From positions 1 through 27,517 of the IMG/VR virus record IMGVR_UViG_3300042507_002050: a stretch of DNA of 27,517 nt; one strand, given 5' to 3'. The notes below the pieces were generated by a model. It saw nothing but the letters and a program-made list of their open reading frames with translations. It searched no databases and was not told the origin of the DNA. Numbering within the stretch: the first letter of the stretch is position 1; each line of letters starts with the position of its first letter. This stretch comes from a virus. Both the position numbers and the translations under genes were made by a program. Shown one piece after another: positions 17,103 to 27,087 of the stretch.

Positions 17103-17566
17103 TGCAGCGTCAGATTCCCGCTGGTAGGCAGCGCACCCACCAGCACCTGGCTCAGCACTCTGCCGCCGGGCGCCTTGACGGCATCGAGCGGGCTGGCCAG
17201 CTGGAGCTTGGCGATCGGCTCGCTGGTGTCGCTCTGCAGCTGCTGCGCCGCCCAGTATTCCGTGGTGAGCAAGACGCCGAGGCTCTGGTCAGCCCGGTTG
17301 ACCTTGACGGATCGCACCTCCAGCAACCACTCCTGCTGGCTGGCCTCGGCAAACACGTTCAGCGTCAGAGCTGAGGTCGCCGCAGCGATCACCGCCTCGG
17401 ATCGATCACCGCCCCGGGTGCTGGAGTTGGTGGCCACCGCCACCGGCAGGTGGGGGTAATTCTGGCCGTTGTGCGCGATGGTCTGGCCGATGAAGTAGTT
17501 CTGGGCCAGCCAGGTGGTATAGGTGCCATCCCGGCGCTTGAACCGCAGGAAGTTGCAGAGCTCCAT
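17099..17566 (-). CDS. Minor tail protein (155 aa)
   Basis: It starts MELCNFLRFKRRDGTYTTWL directly after the tape measure stop (TGATG overlap) and stops inside the ATGA of the NlpC-like gene. Beta-rich segments (VKVNRADQSLGVLLTTEYW, then APGGRVLSQVLVGA) fit the small tail-tip proteins (lambda M/L neighbourhood or DUF1833-like) that sit between tape measure and tip. No enzymatic motif is visible. Role as a baseplate or tip-forming ring is inferred mainly from gene order. Confidence 0.75.
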   Translation of the reverse strand: MELCNFLRFKRRDGTYTTWLAQNYFIGQTIAHNGQNYPHLPVAVATNSSTRGGDRSEAVIAAATSALTLNVFAEASQQEWLLEVRSVKVNRADQSLGVLLTTEYWAAQQLQSDTSEPIAKLQLASPLDAVKAPGGRVLSQVLVGALPTSGNLTLQ

Positions 17567-20500
17567 CAGCTCAGTCCTGCCTGCCGCCTGGCGGTGGGGT
17601 TGTTGGTGATGCGTTTCTGGGCCAGTGCGGCGCCTTGCTTGGCAGACTCGCGGCCGATCCGTTGCGCCTCATCCTTGGTGACGAAATCAAGCTCGCCAAT
17701 CTGCACAGTCTCGAATCGGATAAGGCCATTGCCGCCGGCCGCACCACCACCAGCCGCTGCGGATCCATCCATGCCACCCCGCTGGAATGGCACGCTCAGG
17801 CCCTCCATGCCGCGCTGGAACGGCACGCTTAGGCCGCTGCTGGAGCTGGAGCCGCCGCCCTGCTGGGAGGTCTTGGCAGCGGTGGCAGCGGTGGCCTGGA
17901 ACGGCACCGACAGGCCCCGCAGGCTGGCGTTGTTGATCGCCTCCAGCGCTTCGGTGGCCTCAGCCGGGATGATGCTGCCGGCCTGATAGGGCACGAACAG
18001 CTCGGGGCCGTTTTCGCCGACTGGATAGGGGCGACCGGCTGAGACGCCGCCGCCGAGAGCGCGGCCGAAGAACGGGATGCCGGTGTCGCCGGCTGCGAAT
18101 CCGCCTGGGTCAAAGCCGAGTGCAGGGCTGATGCCGCCCTGCCCACCCGCGGCAAACGTCGAACCACCACCAGCCACCGCACCCAGCGCCTTCAGGATGG
18201 TCTGCAGCGCGATCATGGCCATCTGCTTGGCGATGATCTCTGCGGCCATCTGCGCGAAGCCCTGGGCCACGTCCTCGAAGAATCCGGCCAGCACCTGCCG
18301 GGCGCTTGCTGCGCCGCTGATCAGGTCGCGGAACGCATTGCCGAACGCCCCGCCGATCGTCTCGGCAGACTTGCCCGCCAGGGTGGCGATGCTGGTCATT
18401 TCGGCTAGGTCGTCTTTCAGGGTGGCGATCTGGGCCTCGATCGCCATGCCCTGGGTCTGGAAGGCGGCTGGCTCGGCGGCCTGTCTGGTCAGCTGCTGCA
18501 TCATGCGCACCCGTTCGGCCATCAGGTCGTTGATGTCCTGTTCGGCCTTGACCTGGGCGTTCTTTAGGGCGTGCTGTTTTTCCGATTCGATCCGCGCCAG
18601 CTGTTGCTCAGCGTTGTAATCGATGCCCAGCTCGACCAGCTGTTTCTCCAGCTCCTGAAACTCTCTCTTGGCCTGAATCGCCCTGTCATTGATCTCCAGC
18701 TGCTCGAAGGCGTACTCCAGCCGGCGGCGATCAAGATCAGTTGTTGCGCCCAGTAGCTCGCTTTCCTGGTTGAGCTTGACGACAGCCTGGGTCCTGGCCT
18801 CGATGAACTTTTCGAGCTCGGCGGTGGTGGCTTGTTGGCGTTCGCGGAGTTGCTCGGCGGCTTGCTGCGCCTCTTCGTAACCCGCAGTCGTGGCCTGTGC
18901 TTGTTCGACTGCCCCAAATCCGACGTTCTCCATCGATCCGCCGAAGAACGTGCTCAACGCCTTTTGGCGATGGGGGCCCATGTTGTTGACCCCGCTCACC
19001 GCGCTGGTGCCGAATGAGTCGCGGGCGTTGCGGTTGGCCTTCGGGTTGCCCGCCAGCACCGTGGTGTAGAGGTCCAGCAGACTGGCGCCCTGAGTGCTCA
19101 TGCCGACGCCCTTGAACCGGTCCTGGAAGTACCGGACGACGGGCCCCATCACTTGCTCCTCAAACGACTGGTTTGGGCTGGCCCCGTACTTCTGCCGTTC
19201 TGGAGCACCGAACTGGATCAGCCCCATGTAGTTGTTGCCAGTGCCGCCACGAATGGACGGGCTGAAGGTGCCAGCCGTCTCAAAGCTGATGATCGTCGCC
19301 AGGTCGAGCGGGCTGACGCCGAGCTTCTGAGCTGCGGCGACCAGCGCTCTGCCGCGGCTGGACAGCTCGAACTTTGGAGCGGATCCCGCCGAGCCACCAC
19401 CACCAGCCGCGCCCCCACCCCCACCACCCCCACCAGGCAGCGCAGGCGCCGGGGGGGCGCCGGGGAGGGTGCCGGGGATTGGGGCAGTGGCGGGGAGTGC
19501 CGCGGCCTGGGGCGCTGCGCTGGGGCGGAAGTTCAGCGCCTGCTCCATGGCGCCGGCCATGTCCACGCCCAGCAGCTTGAGGATGCCTTGCATGGGGTTG
19601 AGCTGGCCCAGCATCTGAGAGATCAGCCGGCCCCAGTTGATCCCGATCGACTCGAACACTCCGCCGAAGATGGACTGAATGTTGATTCCCAGCTGCCTGA
19701 AGGCCGCGTCCACCGGGTTGAGCGTGTTCAGTAGGTTCTGCATTGCCTGCCGACCGACCGACTCCACGGCTCGGAATGCGTTCACCGCGAAGTTGCGGAC
19801 GCTGGCGATGACCGCCTGGGCCCTGGCCGCCGCCGCCTGAACGTCTCGCTGCAGCGCCTGGAAAAACACCCCAAACCGGGCCGGGATCGTATTCACGAAC
19901 TCCCGGAACGGCTCGTTAAACTTGTAGGCCGCCGCCGTGGCCGCCGCAATGCCCGCCGCTGCCAATGCCCAGGGCCCCAGCACCGCCAGGTTCAGAGCAA
20001 CGGCAGCATTCCTTGCAACGGTCGCCGCTGCGCTGAAATTGGTCAGCCCCGCAATCGCCGCCTTCGCCCCGCTCACGCCGCCCACCAGCGCCAGCGCGCC
20101 AGACACAGCATTCACCGCCACCACCAGCCCCAAGGTGCTGATCCCTGCGGCAGCAGCGGCAGCGCCGATATTCCTGATCGGATCAGGCAGTTTCATTGCC
20201 GCGCTGATCGCCAGGTTGAACGTGTCAATCAACGGCTTCATTGCCGCGCCGATCATCCCGCCGATCTGATTGGCCAGGTATTCGACGTTGCCACCGGCCA
20301 CCACGATGGAGTAGTTGAAACCCTGCATCTTTTTCTGGGTTTCTTCGGCTACCCCGCCAGCGTTACGGACGAACCCGAACATCTCCTGAATCTTGGATTC
20401 AGTGAAGTTCATCGTTGCGAGGAACTTGCTGGCGGCCTCTGTGCCAAACAGCGCCTTTGCCAAGATCGCCTGATCGCTGATGCTCAGCTTTGCAAAGCTA

Positions 20501-21564
20501 TCTTTGAGCGCCAGGATCACCTGATCCATTGGCTTGAGCTTGCCTTGGGTGTCTAGGATCTGGGCGCCCAGTACATCCATCGCCTTGCCCAGCAGCGCGT
20601 TGCCTCTGGTCAGGCTCTGGATTTCCTCATCGGCGCCGCCGGCTGCGGTCTGCAATCTGAACAGGCCCATCCTCAGGCCGGTGCCAGCGTCGCTGCCGCG
20701 GATGCCTGCGTTGGCCATCAGGCCCAAGGTGGCGGCCAGATCCTCAATGGAGACACCCAGTGTCTTGGCAACCGGCGCGCTGTATTTCATCGCCTCGCCT
20801 ACATCGAGCACTCCCTGGTTGGACTTGTTCGCCGCCTGCGTGAGGATGTCAACGACTCGATTGACCTGGCTGGTCTCCAGGCCGAACGCCCGCATGTTGT
20901 CGGCAGCGATGCTGCCCATCTCCTCGAACGACACCGCCGTGGCCTCAGCGCCGCGCACGATGCCCGCCAGGGACTGTGTGGTCTCCTGTGCGCTGAATCC
21001 CGCCCGGCTCAGTGACGTGGCCAGCGCTGCCACTTCTGTGGGCGTGCCAGCCGCCACAGCGGCGACCTTCTCAATCTCCTTCTGCAGCACGCTGAACGAT
21101 CCAGCGCCGCCTTCAATGGCCGCCGCCTTGCGCACCTCAGCGTCGAACTTGCCGGCCTGCATCGTGATCTGCTGCAGCCCGCGGCCGATCCCTGCCGCTG
21201 CCAGGCCTGTGGCGAGCTTCTTGCCCAGCGAATCACCGGCAGCGGTGGCCGTGGTGTCGAGGCCCCGCAGCTTCCCTTCGAGCTTCTGGATCTCGGCGCC
21301 GTACCGCTGAAACTCCCGGCTGCCGATCTTGGCCTGCTCCTGCAGCCCACGGAATGCGCCGATGCTGCTGCGGATCCCGGCGATCGTGCTGTCATTGGCG
21401 CGGGCGAACTGGAACGTCGCTGCACGCAGCGTGCTCATTTCGCGGGCCGTGGTCTGGCTGCCCTTTGCCAGATCCTGCAGCGACCGCTGCACCTTCGTGA
21501 TATTCGCCCCGCCCTTCACTTCGGCTGACAGCCGGATGGCGGTATCCAGGCTCATCCGGGCCAT
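17566..21564 (-). CDS. Tape measure protein with lysozyme-like domain (1332 aa)
   Basis: Residues about 130-420 look like the TP901-type tape measure core: SLSRAGFSAQETTQSLAG, then SIEDLAATLGLMANAGIRGS, then GTGLRMGLFRL. Hydrophobic stretches lie near 470-545. At about 733-880 a domain begins KFELSSRGRALVAAAQKLG and contains SFETAGTFSP with GNNYMGLIQFG, the pattern of a lytic transglycosylase/lysozyme-like fold with E as the likely catalytic acid; it may help the tip pass the cell wall. Coiled-coil regions rich in Gln/Glu/Arg follow to about 1050. The C-terminus carries three GLSVPFQ peptides (about 1217, 1244, 1255) and Gly-rich linkers. The length sets the tail length in this family. The 26-base gap upstream holds a CCATAGCCTGA repeat. 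Confidence 0.92.
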   Translation of the reverse strand: MARMSLDTAIRLSAEVKGGANITKVQRSLQDLAKGSQTTAREMSTLRAATFQFARANDSTIAGIRSSIGAFRGLQEQAKIGSREFQRYGAEIQKLEGKLRGLDTTATAAGDSLGKKLATGLAAAGIGRGLQQITMQAGKFDAEVRKAAAIEGGAGSFSVLQKEIEKVAAVAAGTPTEVAALATSLSRAGFSAQETTQSLAGIVRGAEATAVSFEEMGSIAADNMRAFGLETSQVNRVVDILTQAANKSNQGVLDVGEAMKYSAPVAKTLGVSIEDLAATLGLMANAGIRGSDAGTGLRMGLFRLQTAAGGADEEIQSLTRGNALLGKAMDVLGAQILDTQGKLKPMDQVILALKDSFAKLSISDQAILAKALFGTEAASKFLATMNFTESKIQEMFGFVRNAGGVAEETQKKMQGFNYSIVVAGGNVEYLANQIGGMIGAAMKPLIDTFNLAISAAMKLPDPIRNIGAAAAAAGISTLGLVVAVNAVSGALALVGGVSGAKAAIAGLTNFSAAATVARNAAVALNLAVLGPWALAAAGIAAATAAAYKFNEPFREFVNTIPARFGVFFQALQRDVQAAAARAQAVIASVRNFAVNAFRAVESVGRQAMQNLLNTLNPVDAAFRQLGINIQSIFGGVFESIGINWGRLISQMLGQLNPMQGILKLLGVDMAGAMEQALNFRPSAAPQAAALPATAPIPGTLPGAPPAPALPGGGGGGGGAAGGGGSAGSAPKFELSSRGRALVAAAQKLGVSPLDLATIISFETAGTFSPSIRGGTGNNYMGLIQFGAPERQKYGASPNQSFEEQVMGPVVRYFQDRFKGVGMSTQGASLLDLYTTVLAGNPKANRNARDSFGTSAVSGVNNMGPHRQKALSTFFGGSMENVGFGAVEQAQATTAGYEEAQQAAEQLRERQQATTAELEKFIEARTQAVVKLNQESELLGATTDLDRRRLEYAFEQLEINDRAIQAKREFQELEKQLVELGIDYNAEQQLARIESEKQHALKNAQVKAEQDINDLMAERVRMMQQLTRQAAEPAAFQTQGMAIEAQIATLKDDLAEMTSIATLAGKSAETIGGAFGNAFRDLISGAASARQVLAGFFEDVAQGFAQMAAEIIAKQMAMIALQTILKALGAVAGGGSTFAAGGQGGISPALGFDPGGFAAGDTGIPFFGRALGGGVSAGRPYPVGENGPELFVPYQAGSIIPAEATEALEAINNASLRGLSVPFQATAATAAKTSQQGGGSSSSSGLSVPFQRGMEGLSVPFQRGGMDGSAAAGGGAAGGNGLIRFETVQIGELDFVTKDEAQRIGRESAKQGAALAQKRITNNPTARRQAGLS

Positions 21565-22411: not shown

Positions 22412-23605
22412 TCAGAAGAAAACAAGGCGGGTTTCGTCGTTGCCGGCTGCGGACTTGGGCAGCGCGGTAAATGGGATCTGCAGCATGCTGACCCCGTCAG
22501 AATCAGGGAACGAGAGGTCGCCGCTGATCGCTGCCTTGGGGCAGAAGAAAATGGAGCTTTCGTTGGCCGTCGTGCCCTGCTGCACAACGAACGGGCCATC
22601 GCTGGCGCCGCTGTTGTCAGCCGCAGCGGTGAAGAAGTTCTTCGTCGCCACAGGCGGGTTTTCGATCGTGATCGTCCCGTTTGGATTGGGGCGGTCGGTG
22701 ATGCGGGCGTGAGGTTCGCAGCCGATCAGCGAGCGGAACACGGCCGACAGGCCCCAGTCGAAGGTGAAGCCTTCGGAGCAGGGATTGAAGCCCTGGAACC
22801 GCAACGCCTTGGTGTGGGTCGGGGTGACGGGCACCGGCTCGGCCTGGTTGCTGTAGATGAATCCTTCAGCGCTCTTTGCGGTGGGGGTGGTGTAGCGGCC
22901 GACGCCGGTGATGGTGAAGGTGCCGTAACCGTTCAGCGTGCTGTTGAGGGCCGGACTGCCGCGGAATCCATCAATTCGGTGAACGTTGACGCCATCCTTG
23001 ACCGCCACGATGGTGCAGCTGCTGCCGTTGCCGAACGTGCTGATCGGCTGCAGCAGGGACAGCGCGGGGATCTTGTAGCCCACTGCGCCGCCGGTGAACG
23101 ATGCGGTGGAAGGAGCCACCGTCACCTGCCTGGTGGCCCCGTCGTGCGCCACGATCACGCCTTTGTGGCCCGTGTTGGCGCCGCTGGTGATTTCGATTGG
23201 CAGGCCCAGGTAAGCGTCGCTTGCGGGGTTGCTGCCGCCCAGGTCCGCCAGGGTGAGGGTGTTGGCGCCGCCTGCGGTGGCCGTACCGGTCAGTTCGGCG
23301 AATGCCGAGACGTTCATACCGGCTGCCTGCAGCAGTGGCGTGAACCGGGGGGCGGTGGCTGCAACGCCAGAGCCGCCCCACTCGAATGTCACCGTGACGG
23401 CGACGTGCTCATTGGTCAGCGGCTGGCGGTCGGCGCCGAGGAACCCCTTGATTAGGGCCCGCTCCACGCGAGTACCGGTGATCGGGTTGATCTCCAGCGA
23501 CACGATCTTCACCGCGTCGGTGTTGGCGATCGAGCTGGCCAGGGTGCCGTAGCTGGTCTCGGCCTTCACCAGCGCGAAGCTGTTGCGAATCAGGAGAGCT
23601 GTCAT
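22412..23605 (-). CDS. Major tail tube protein (397 aa)
   Basis: This 397-aa protein has the features of the large phage tail-tube family 2: an N-terminal SFALVKAETSYGTLA, then NPITGTRVERALIKGFLGA, then AVTVTFEWGGSG and APRFTPLLQAAG, with closing strands near the end. Such proteins polymerise into the tube around the tape measure. The insert at about 105-180 (TGTATAGGANTLTLADLG to GAVGYKIPA) looks like an extra Ig-like or barrel domain exposed on the outside. It follows the 46-aa protein with a TAATG overlap and precedes the chaperones, the usual siphovirus order. Confidence 0.88.
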   Translation of the reverse strand: MTALLIRNSFALVKAETSYGTLASSIANTDAVKIVSLEINPITGTRVERALIKGFLGADRQPLTNEHVAVTVTFEWGGSGVAATAPRFTPLLQAAGMNVSAFAELTGTATAGGANTLTLADLGGSNPASDAYLGLPIEITSGANTGHKGVIVAHDGATRQVTVAPSTASFTGGAVGYKIPALSLLQPISTFGNGSSCTIVAVKDGVNVHRIDGFRGSPALNSTLNGYGTFTITGVGRYTTPTAKSAEGFIYSNQAEPVPVTPTHTKALRFQGFNPCSEGFTFDWGLSAVFRSLIGCEPHARITDRPNPNGTITIENPPVATKNFFTAAADNSGASDGPFVVQQGTTANESSIFFCPKAAISGDLSFPDSDGVSMLQIPFTALPKSAAGNDETRLVFF

Positions 23606-23766: not shown

Positions 23767-23780
23767 CCCTCAGGCTATGG
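23767..23780 (-). repeat. Junction repeat copy 3 (CCATAGCCTGAGGG)
   Basis: The 14-base element is identical to copy 1, with the match extending to 17 bases (GCTCCATAGCCTGAGGG). It contains the TAG stop of the tail-terminator gene and lies 21 bases before the ATG of the 46-aa gene. Confidence 0.7.
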
Positions 23781-24230
23781 AGCCGCGTTGATTGCGTCGT
23801 CGCGGGTGCGATAGCGGATCAGGAAACGGTGCTGCATCCAGCCAGCAGTGGCGTCGGCCTGCTCATATTCCGGCCGCCAGCCATCGGGCTGCACGTCCTG
23901 AGCCAGGCCGCCAAGGGTGCGATCGCTCATCATGCGGGCGTGCACGTCTACGCCGATCGGGTCTGCCAGCTGGTCGGGCACGTCGCCGCGCACGTAGATT
24001 TCGATCATCACCGGCAGCGCCTGATCCAGCCGTCCCAGGCTGGCGCCCGTGGTGCGCGGGGCGTTCACCGGGTTGTCCTCGCCGGGGCTGACGATCAGCG
24101 CCGGGGCCTCCGACCTAGAGAGCGCCTGCACCCGGCTGCGGTAGATCCTGATGCCGACCTGCACCGTGCCGGGCAGGGTGACGGTGTGGATGTGGTTCAG
24201 GATCCTTTCACGAACGCTGGGGGTGGTCAT
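23775..24230 (-). CDS. Tail terminator / minor tail protein U-like (151 aa)
   Basis: It begins MTTPSVRERILNHIHTVTLP and contains GIRIYRSRVQALSRSEAPAL, followed by a beta strand (PALIVSPGE), LPVMIEIYVRGDVPDQL, and a closing strand near MQHRFLIRY. Small alpha/beta proteins with 'RE.IL..I...L......V.RSR..al.r.e.PAl.v.pg' cap the tail tube end and join it to the head. The position right before the small protein and tail tube genes agrees. Its ATG overlaps the stop of the 34-aa fragment as ATGA. The first 31 residues resemble that fragment. Confidence 0.82.
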   Translation of the reverse strand: MTTPSVRERILNHIHTVTLPGTVQVGIRIYRSRVQALSRSEAPALIVSPGEDNPVNAPRTTGASLGRLDQALPVMIEIYVRGDVPDQLADPIGVDVHARMMSDRTLGGLAQDVQPDGWRPEYEQADATAGWMQHRFLIRYRTRDDAINAAP

Positions 24231-24331
24231 GGGTCAGTCCGGCTCCGATACACCCGCCCGCTCACGCCGCTGGTGGCCGCCAGGGTGGTGTCGATGTGGG
24301 CGAGGATTTGTTCGCGTTTGGTGGTGGTCAT
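24227..24331 (-). pseudogene. 34-aa remnant of a second tail-terminator gene
   Basis: The short frame MTTTKREQILAHIDTTLAAT then SGVSGRVYRSRTDP stops in an ATGA overlap with the intact tail terminator. It matches that gene's own start in order and spacing: MTT..RE.IL.HI.T.L......V..R.YRSR, after which the homology ends. A full-length family member would have about 110 more residues. I read it as the 5' end of a paralogue or former terminator gene truncated by recombination. It could still be translated, coupling ribosomes to the intact gene. ATG 24331 lies 34 bases after the stop of the 133-aa gene. Confidence 0.65.
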
Positions 24332-24365
24332 GGGTGGGGCGTTGTAGCCGGGGGCGCTACGGGGG

Positions 24366-24767
24366 CTATTCTGTACTTGGCTCTGGGCGGTTGTAAGCCA
24401 ACAGCACAGGAATCCGCTCAGCAGCGATCAGCCCAGCGGCGGCCAGTGCCTGTAGGCCGGACTCCAGCCGGGGATCGTCAAGAGCCACCGTGGGAGTGCT
24501 CGTGAGCTCATCCACCCGGGCAGCCACCTCTGGGGACTGCTCGGCAGCGGCGAGGATCGTCACGTATTCAGCGGCAGTCAATCGGTGGATGAATGCAGAG
24601 CTGGTGATCAACCCAATGCGGCCCAGGTCGGCATAGATGCGGCCTTGGTGTTTCAGGAACTCCAGCGCAAGCTGCTCGGGCGTCGTGCCGTTGTGGTTGG
24701 CGGCTTCAACCCAGCCATCAATCAGGCGGGAATCGGAAAGGGTGATGGTTAGGATAGAGAGTGTCAT
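24366..24767 (-). CDS. Fibre-associated protein, unknown (133 aa)
   Basis: It follows the 652-aa fibre with an ATGA overlap. It starts with a beta strand ([16 protein letters not shown]) and continues helical, ending with VALDDPRLESGLQALAAAGL and ERIPVLLAYN. The pattern 'V.LDDPR...GL.aL...GL....R...LL' appears to me in small genes that follow fibre genes in other phages, where a fibre-folding or attachment job is suspected. No catalytic residues are visible. It forms a two-gene cassette with the fibre, placed between the head-tail connector and terminator genes. Confidence 0.7.
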   Translation of the reverse strand: MTLSILTITLSDSRLIDGWVEAANHNGTTPEQLALEFLKHQGRIYADLGRIGLITSSAFIHRLTAAEYVTILAAAEQSPEVAARVDELTSTPTVALDDPRLESGLQALAAAGLIAAERIPVLLAYNRPEPSTE

Positions 24768-26725
24768 CAGGATAACCGGTAGGTGGCATAGGTGTTGGCC
24801 GCCGTGCGCCGCGTGGCAAAGCGACCGGCTGTGCCAGCGGCCACTGCATCAGCCCCCACAATCGTGTGATCTGTGTTGGCGAGGATTGTTGCCGCATTGC
24901 TGCCGGTGTTGATCACGCTCCACTCAAATGTGAGATTGTCGGCGTTGGCTGCAAACCCGCCCTCCACGTTGGCACCAGTGGGCAGCGTCATGGCCACTGG
25001 TGCAGCCGTTGTGGTTGTGATGATGCCGTCTTGGATGTTGGCGATCGTCAGCGTTGCCGTGGCGTTGACTGCGGCAGGGGCAGGTTGCGAATAGCGGTAG
25101 TAGCCGTCGCGGCTGATCTGAACGCGGGTGATGCCGTCCGTCTGCCACTCCAGTGCGCGGGCGGTGCCGCCTGCCGAGCCTTTCTCGGTGCCGACGCGGA
25201 ATGTAGGAGTGCCACCTGTGAGCGTGGTGGAGAGTACCGTTTGCGATTCACTGACGACGTAAGTGCCAGTCCCGCCAGTGCCTGTACCCAGCGCCGTGAT
25301 GCGGGTGCCTGGGGCAACGTTAACGCCGGTGATAATCTGCCCGACAGTTAAGGCGCCGCTGGTGACGGCGGTAACCGTCAGCACATTGGTGACGGAGATA
25401 GAACCGGTGAATACAGCATCAGATGTGCTGCGCTCCCAAGAGGCCTTACCTAGCTCAAAGTTGGTGGTGCTAGCAAAGGCGCCATAGATACGGAAGGTTT
25501 GGGCACTATTAGCGCGACGTTGAGCGAGGATATTATTTGCATCACGAATTATAGTTGCGCCCAATAAGTCCAAGCCTCCAGCTGCGTGTACGATGAGAGC
25601 TTGAGCCCCAAACGCAGCGCCATAAAATTGAAGAATTGTGCTACCAGCGCATCTTAATGTTCCTTGCGCGGTGGAGCCTTGTATGTCGAGATCTCCAGCG
25701 GATCCCGAGGAAAACCTAAGACGCGTAACTCCATTGACTTGCAAATCCAGCAGGTTCCCGGTAAACCCGTTTGGCGCATTAACGCCAAACCCCGTGCCAG
25801 CAGTGCTCCAGCTTGTTGACGTGGTGCCAGTTGGTTCAATCAGTAACGCTGGCCTGGTGGTTGTGCTGGTGCCGCCCGTGAACCACGTCCCAGTCAGTGC
25901 CATCGGCGGCGTGTTAGCCGCACCATTCGCCACCAGGATCAGCCTCGCCAGCGTCACGGCGCCCGTGGCGCCATCCACGCTGCTGTTGGGGATCGCGCCC
26001 AGCGCGTTGCTGTTGCGGTACTGAATCTCGGTGCCGCTGCCTGCAGGGGTCGCACCAGCCTCAACCGTGGCCCAGGTGCCGTCGTCCTTAAGGTACTTCC
26101 CGCTTGGGGTGCCTGTTGCCGGCGCCAAACCCGCCGTAGTCGTGGAGACCACTCCGGGCAATCCCGACAGGTTGCTGTAAGCGATCTGCGCCCCATCGCC
26201 GCCGTTGTGGTCGTGGCTGTTGCCGTTGGTCACACCCTGCGCGGCAGGTGCGAAGTCGCCGGTGTTGGCTGCTGCTGCGGTGCCCAGGCCCAGCAGCGTG
26301 CGCTGTGCGGCCGCGTCGAGGGCCTCCACCATGGCGCGGCCTGCCGCGGTGCTTGCGCCGGTCCACCAGGCAACAATCGCCTGCCGCACCCGTTGCGCCG
26401 TGAACGCCCGCCGGGTGGCTGCCGTGCCGGTTTCTGTCTCCGCTTGGCTGATCGTGCTGGCGATCCACTCTCGGGCGTCGGCCAGGCGGGCATCGCTCGC
26501 TCCCACGTAAGCCGCATCGCCCTCGGCGGCAGTCAGGTAGCCAGGATGCGGGTCTGCAGCTGCTACGTGGGCAGCCACAGCACTGCTGATCGCGCCAGCC
26601 GCCAGATTCGCAATATCTTGGGTGGTGGCGTCCTTCGTCGCCCCAGCCTGATCCATCGGTACCCGCTCGGTTCCATCAAGCGGGGTCGTGGCGTTTGGCA
26701 GGCCTGTGATCGTGGTTTCAGCCAT
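24767..26725 (-). CDS. Tail fibre protein (652 aa), placed upstream of tail terminator
   Basis: It opens [20 protein letters not shown], a start shared by many phage fibre/collar proteins, then [19 protein letters not shown] and a helix. At about 170 the motif [10 protein letters not shown] gives HxH-type metal ligands. After a Gly/Thr/Ala-rich shaft, residues about 311-431 are encoded by more A/T-rich DNA, including a segment [18 protein letters not shown] nearby. The C-terminus ([17 protein letters not shown] onward) is a beta-rich cap. It should be a trimeric receptor-binding or decoration fibre. Fibres normally follow the tip genes, so its place between head-tail joining and terminator genes is unusual. 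It begins two bases after the previous stop. Confidence 0.82.
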
Positions 26726-26727
26726 GC

Positions 26728-27087
26728 CTACAGAATGCGGAGTTGCTTGTTATTCAGAGTCGTGATCCGCAGGCCGCTCAGCGTCACCAGGTAGGTGGCG
26801 ACCTCTTGAATCTGCTCCAGCACCATCACGCAGAACCGGCCATCAGCCAGCTTCAGCGGTTCGTGCTGCAGCTTGTACGTCAATCCCTCGTGCTGCACCT
26901 GGTCGCCATACTGCAGGGCGCCGAACTGATCGGTCCTGGCGGTGATCGCATAATCCACCGTCACCACCTGATCATTCATGATGATCTGGCTGGCGCGGTC
27001 CATGATGCCCAAACCAACAACGGCCCCAGCAGTGACGCTGGAGCCGAAGTCAGCCAGCAGGAAATCATCGGGGATTTCCTGGATCAT
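26728..27087 (-). CDS. Head-tail joining-like protein (119 aa)
   Basis: The sequence [21 protein letters not shown] followed by strands with [36 protein letters not shown] and RFCVMVLEQ resembles small beta-barrel head-tail connectors (lambda FII-like: 'L.DfG..V...G......d......G.......L.......l..GD.v...G..Y.V........G...l.LE'). It would sit at the interface between portal/head completion proteins and the tail terminator ring. It starts two bases after the upstream stop. The sequence continues beyond the usual end with [15 protein letters not shown], which I cannot place. Confidence 0.6.

Follow-up and report, generated by a model that had tools for sequence, protein, structure and literature searches.

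A torn tail-terminator start as the probable scar of a fibre-slot exchange between cyanosiphovirus lineages

A 34-codon reading frame in front of the tail terminator gene of a cyanosiphovirus is, to judge from its sequence, no new gene but the torn start of a tail gene that belongs to another cyanophage lineage. It is very probably a recombination scar, left by an exchange of fibre-slot contents from a type-B donor into a type-A cyanosiphovirus. The two types are terminator lineages, about 41–45% identical to each other, that are found among the freshwater cyanosiphovirus relatives of the DNA analysed here. This DNA, a 27,517-base IMG/VR virus record, is called the window, and coordinates given without a record refer to the whole of it.

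The tail genes of the window are all encoded on the minus strand, where a head-tail attachment-like gene is followed in turn by fibre, fibre companion, 34-aa frame, tail terminator, 46-aa frame, tail protein and tape measure (17566–21564). The head-tail attachment-like gene (26728–27087, 119 aa) forms the left border of the fibre slot. Its match to Pfam PF05354 (E = 2.8e-4) lies just below the Pfam cutoff, and its variant is that of type A, with 92–96% identity in many type-A relatives and mostly 31–57% in type-B phages. On the right, the slot is followed by an intact terminator of type A (23775–24230, 151 aa) and by a probable tube protein (22412–23605, 397 aa; phrog_290, E = 1.1e-9), a type-A right flank that is 93–98% identical in the nearest type-A relatives. 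The small frame of 46–47 aa in the gap between these two genes (23745–23605) overlaps the tail protein start with its end and is conserved in L155, L156, L159 and L167. Elsewhere in the window, a 426-aa protein (3171–1891) carries a C39-like peptidase domain in its C-terminal half; the N-terminal half, which we take to resemble a GH19-type lysozyme, has no Pfam match.

The remnant and its breakpoint

The 34-aa frame opens with an ATG at 24331 and runs on the minus strand to 24227, its TGA falling inside the ATGA with which the terminator begins (24230–24227), as the initial annotation had described. Its match to the PHROG profile phrog_4204 (tail terminator) covers columns 2–33 of 147 (E = 1.1e-4) and not the full length; lacking the remaining three quarters of the protein, the frame cannot be a terminator. 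The full gene downstream covers columns 2–143 of the same profile (E = 4.8e-31). The frame had been said to repeat the first 31 residues of this neighbour: a resemblance does exist (53% over about 31 residues), and "repeat" is too strong a word for it.

The DNA of the frame corresponds to the start of intact type-B terminators, at 94 of 95 bases in L183 and 92 of 95 in L187. Such a resemblance is, on the bases compared, far beyond chance, and it shows that a lineage which could plausibly be the donor holds the gene intact. In the tree of terminator 5' parts that had been proposed as a check, built from 96 5' ends, the scar alleles, four in all, group within type B (fork 100/99) and the frame of the window pairs with B_L182 (95/93); the alignment is short and many forks of the tree are unresolved, but its starred branches force at least two changes of the scar label. 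A diverged tandem duplication of the 5' end of the neighbouring gene, to which the protein similarity of 53% could point, is refuted as the source of the frame by the 99% DNA identity to a gene of the other lineage and by the position within that lineage in the tree, and we give it practically no credence. The neighbour itself is 95–97% identical in the relatives L003–L021, which, with the exception of L006, are free of the scar and have no 34-aa frame. Outside the scar lineage, the frame was not seen as a conserved independent gene.

The change from one parent to the other can be placed to the base. Read towards the terminator, the window tracks L187 base by base through TATCGGAGCCG, whose last base is 24240, and then continues with GACTGACCC-ATG. 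The type-A equivalents at this point are GACTGAGCC-ATG in L139 and ACTGACCC-ATG in L068, and in comparison with these GACTGACCC (24231–24239) is recipient-side sequence 5' of the type-A terminator. Codons 1–30 and two bases of codon 31 therefore come from type B (24240–24331, compared base by base with L187 and L183), and the last codons and the stop come from the sequence that precedes the type-A terminator. The breakpoint is thus sharp, with recipient sequence beyond it, and the parents overlap there by at most one base. At the level of the sequence, both the type-B origin of the first 92 bases and the exact breakpoint are established.

The same junction, CGGAGCCGGACTGANNCATGACC, occurs in seven IMG/VR records besides the window. 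The companion gene is the same in six of these seven; L254 has a different one, which overlaps the 34-aa frame by ATGA, so that the scar and the cassette of the window are not strictly linked. The frame is open in each of the four scar alleles, one of which has a 3-base deletion. The alleles of the window and L036 differ from each other at five positions and from their nearest intact type-B alleles at only two and three, which suggests a later homologous exchange inside the remnant.

A metagenome assembly chimera of two phage populations would also bring together parts of two lineages. The scar sequences all come from metagenome contigs, and L254 continues oddly after the scar, but an identical junction in eight records, most from different samples and with different flanking alleles, makes an assembly artefact very improbable. 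In L254 itself (578–803), the type-A terminator past the scar breaks off after about 62 bases and gives way to a different tail module, as a nested scar or a chimeric contig. A second scar with a different breakpoint lies in L048 (5059–5300) and L064 (895–1150), where about 51 nt of a type-B terminator start run on in frame into a hydrophobic frame of 48 aa (MPYLIRF..), which is found again before many terminators.

The fibre slot and its contents

The cassette of the window consists of a fibre gene (26725–24767, 652 aa; PHROG 21413, E = 1e-17, and 38233, tail fiber, E = 1.6e-14) and a companion gene (24767–24366, 133 aa) whose start overlaps the fibre stop in TGATG, both in agreement with the initial annotation. 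A ColabFold model of the companion is all-helical and, with a mean pLDDT of 61.5, too weak for a fold search. Between the companion and the scar, a spacer (24332–24365) forms the right end of the slot; it ends in GTAGCGCCCCCGGCTACAACGCCCCACCC and has relatives upstream of both type-A and type-B terminators.

The claim that fibres are not normally found in this place does not hold for this phage group, in which the slot is the usual fibre location. The fibre of S-LBS1 is flanked by head genes on one side and the terminator on the other; S-CBS1 and S-CBS3 each have an annotated tail fibre gene directly 5' of theirs. In the type-A contigs that include both borders, the head-tail gene and the terminator are 2.3–5.9 kb apart and enclose very different fibres. 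Versions lacking the cassette, a comparison that had been called for, exist in many type-B contigs, in which the gap is zero and the head-tail gene overlaps or touches the terminator; none was seen in type-A phages. Versions with other cassettes exist as well, and no relative was seen that has the 34-aa frame without slot genes.

Slot contents are shared across the two lineages. The 5' end of the fibre is conserved between lineages, the first 44–150 residues being 90–100% identical in some A- and B-type phages, and its distal part is variable. Slot DNA common to A and B phages reaches 95.8% identity over 1202 bp between L065 and L182, and 90.9% over 596 bp between L003 and L200, where it ends at the terminator start codon. 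The sharing extends to T4-like cyanomyoviruses: the distal fibre and companion of the window (25872–24348, minus strand) are 95% identical in DNA to the contig L158 (1–1520), whose record carries a T4-like capsid gene Gp23 and a prohead protease beside the shared block. Homologues of the companion were found in the six other scar records, in L045, L047 and L162, in T4-like cyanomyovirus contigs, among them the 138.8-kb record behind L164 (Gp23, and the companion at 82%), and in S-CBWM1 (139 kb, at 50%).

Two vehicles for the movement of the cassette were considered and rejected. As a recombinase attachment site, the spacer sequence GTAGTGTCCCC fails, because this 15-mer has some 100 matches in viral contigs, by our estimate roughly the number given by chance, and the slot occurrences recognised among them are those already known. 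Integrase-driven movement fails as well: recombinase genes adjoin the fibre in S-LBS1 and L158 and not in the window, and no recombinase frame lies within the cassette (26725–24332). The frame next to the fibre region of the T4-like contig L158 (1575–2453) is of a composite kind. Its first half is HNH-like and matches annotated HNH endonucleases, and its second half is a tyrosine recombinase, 58% identical to the "integrase" of S-LBS1 (L152, 4585–5439), which also follows a fibre.

Origin and possible roles of the scar

By identity to the two lineages, both flanks of the slot are assigned to type A. The left flank is 93–96% identical to type-A contigs from 27517, the end of the window; in the type-B contigs compared, similarity begins only at about 26987 and extends inward from there. 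With both flanks of type A, the best reading is that the cassette arrived together with the 5' end of the terminator of a type-B donor. The full gene would be the resident one, being 95–97% identical in the scar-free relatives and lying between type-A flanks. The simplest history is a transfer of slot DNA from a type-B to a type-A phage, with a small shift of register at the right-hand join. The linkage of head and tail types is imperfect, some type-A phages having head-tail genes at 40–65% identity, and the direction of transfer is therefore likely, not proven, the opposite history being unlikely.

We infer the following order of events. A type-A cyanosiphovirus would swap the fibre and companion that make up the variable content of its slot. 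The incoming DNA would end 31 codons into a type-B terminator gene, and this end would be joined to sequence immediately before the resident type-A terminator, the two sharing no more than one base of homology. The remnant and nine bases of the recipient would then make up a frame of 34 codons, whose stop overlaps the resident start codon in ATGA. Remnant and cassette probably arrived together in one exchange, and type-B phages may later have replaced the left part of the remnant in further homologous exchanges. The pieces of a donor occur separately in L158, L207 and L183, and no single contig was found that holds the companion, the spacer and an intact type-B terminator. This counts against the reading, although a donor that is merely unsampled would not exclude a scar.

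The initial annotation had told the story differently, with a fibre that entered an older resident terminator and left its 5' end behind while an imported or duplicated full copy took over. Its core, a terminator 5' remnant made by recombination at the fibre cassette, is upheld by the type-B match, the breakpoint and the tree, and the remnant does sit between the fibre cassette and the full gene. Moreover, replacement of the tail module of a type-B resident by one of type A would give a similar picture around the junction. However, both slot flanks are type A, relatives free of the scar carry an almost identical full gene, and, the slot being an old and shared fibre site, no fibre needs to have entered an intact terminator. 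The roles of the two pieces are most likely reversed, the remnant being a type-B 5' end that came with the cassette and the type-A full gene being resident. Of a duplicated or imported full copy there is no sign, each of the scar records searched, L159 and L006, holding a single full terminator. We consider the older-resident history unlikely.

Two uses of the remnant would be compatible with its origin as a scar. As a coupling leader, a role that we regard as doubtful, its translation would bring ribosomes, by way of the ATGA overlap, to the start of the terminator. Its stop does overlap the downstream start, the frame is open in all the scar alleles even with the deletion, and in 49 of 82 distinct contexts the terminator start is overlapped by a preceding frame, so that coupling to one or another upstream frame is common at this gene; here the overlap happens to come from the remnant. 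Against such a role, 16 of 35 type-A contexts are "far", with no near upstream frame, and include many relatives with the same terminator; an overlapping frame is therefore not required. Nor is the short frame conserved apart from the recombination event, being seen in the scar lineage only, and the scar alleles are too young and few to show selection: the window, L036 and L254 differ from the nearest type-B allele at two, three and two positions, too few for a selection test. As a homology arm, a use that we put forward tentatively, the 92-base type-B remnant might allow cassettes ending in a type-B terminator to enter type-A phages repeatedly by homologous recombination. This would fit the frames of the window and L036, each nearer to an intact type-B allele than to the other, and the L254 scar behind a different companion gene. 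The 34-aa frame itself probably has no function of its own.

Relation to known systems

Fibre exchange and mosaicism are already established in phages, and the scar is a new, well-documented example of phage mosaicism; no description of it was found in the literature searched. It gives base-resolution evidence of how host-recognition fibres pass between cyanophage lineages that differ in their tails, together with evidence for the sharing of fibre cassettes with T4-like cyanomyoviruses. Scars of this kind mark single exchange events and hence provide a means to count and order exchanges in metagenomes.

Among the phrog_4204 tail terminators (minor tail protein U-like; A15 of S-LBS1, gp11 of S-CBS1 and gp10 of S-CBS3), the resident gene is a full member, whereas the 34-aa frame matches the first 32 columns. 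The scan of a genome collection added one distant relative only, in Nitrosospira; this terminator, in a genome contig of Nitrosospira sp. Nsp11 (L259, 6001–6399), is 44% identical and probably belongs to a prophage.

The isolated cyanosiphoviruses S-LBS1, S-CBS1 and S-CBS3 (PMC6157547) share with the window the order of head genes, fibre region, terminator, tail protein and tape measure. Their terminators belong to the type-B lineage, at 48–57% to a type-B query, whereas the full gene of the window is type A. Their slots also differ in content, that of S-LBS1 including an integrase and those of S-CBS1 and S-CBS3 a short fibre. S-CBS1 and S-CBS3 also have Mtd-like proteins, annotated as Mtd, directly before the head-tail gene (L153, 3518–4579, and L154, 3410–4570), and the second Mtd domain, PF21916, was found in the one of S-CBS1.

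For phage mosaicism, De Paepe et al. (2014, PMC3945230) report that exchanges of small gene fragments outnumber those of complete modules. The case described here is alike in the swap of a cassette between related phages and in the partial gene fragment at its boundary. It is unlike in a breakpoint with almost no homology, and in the readable frame that was left in the downstream ATGA overlap.
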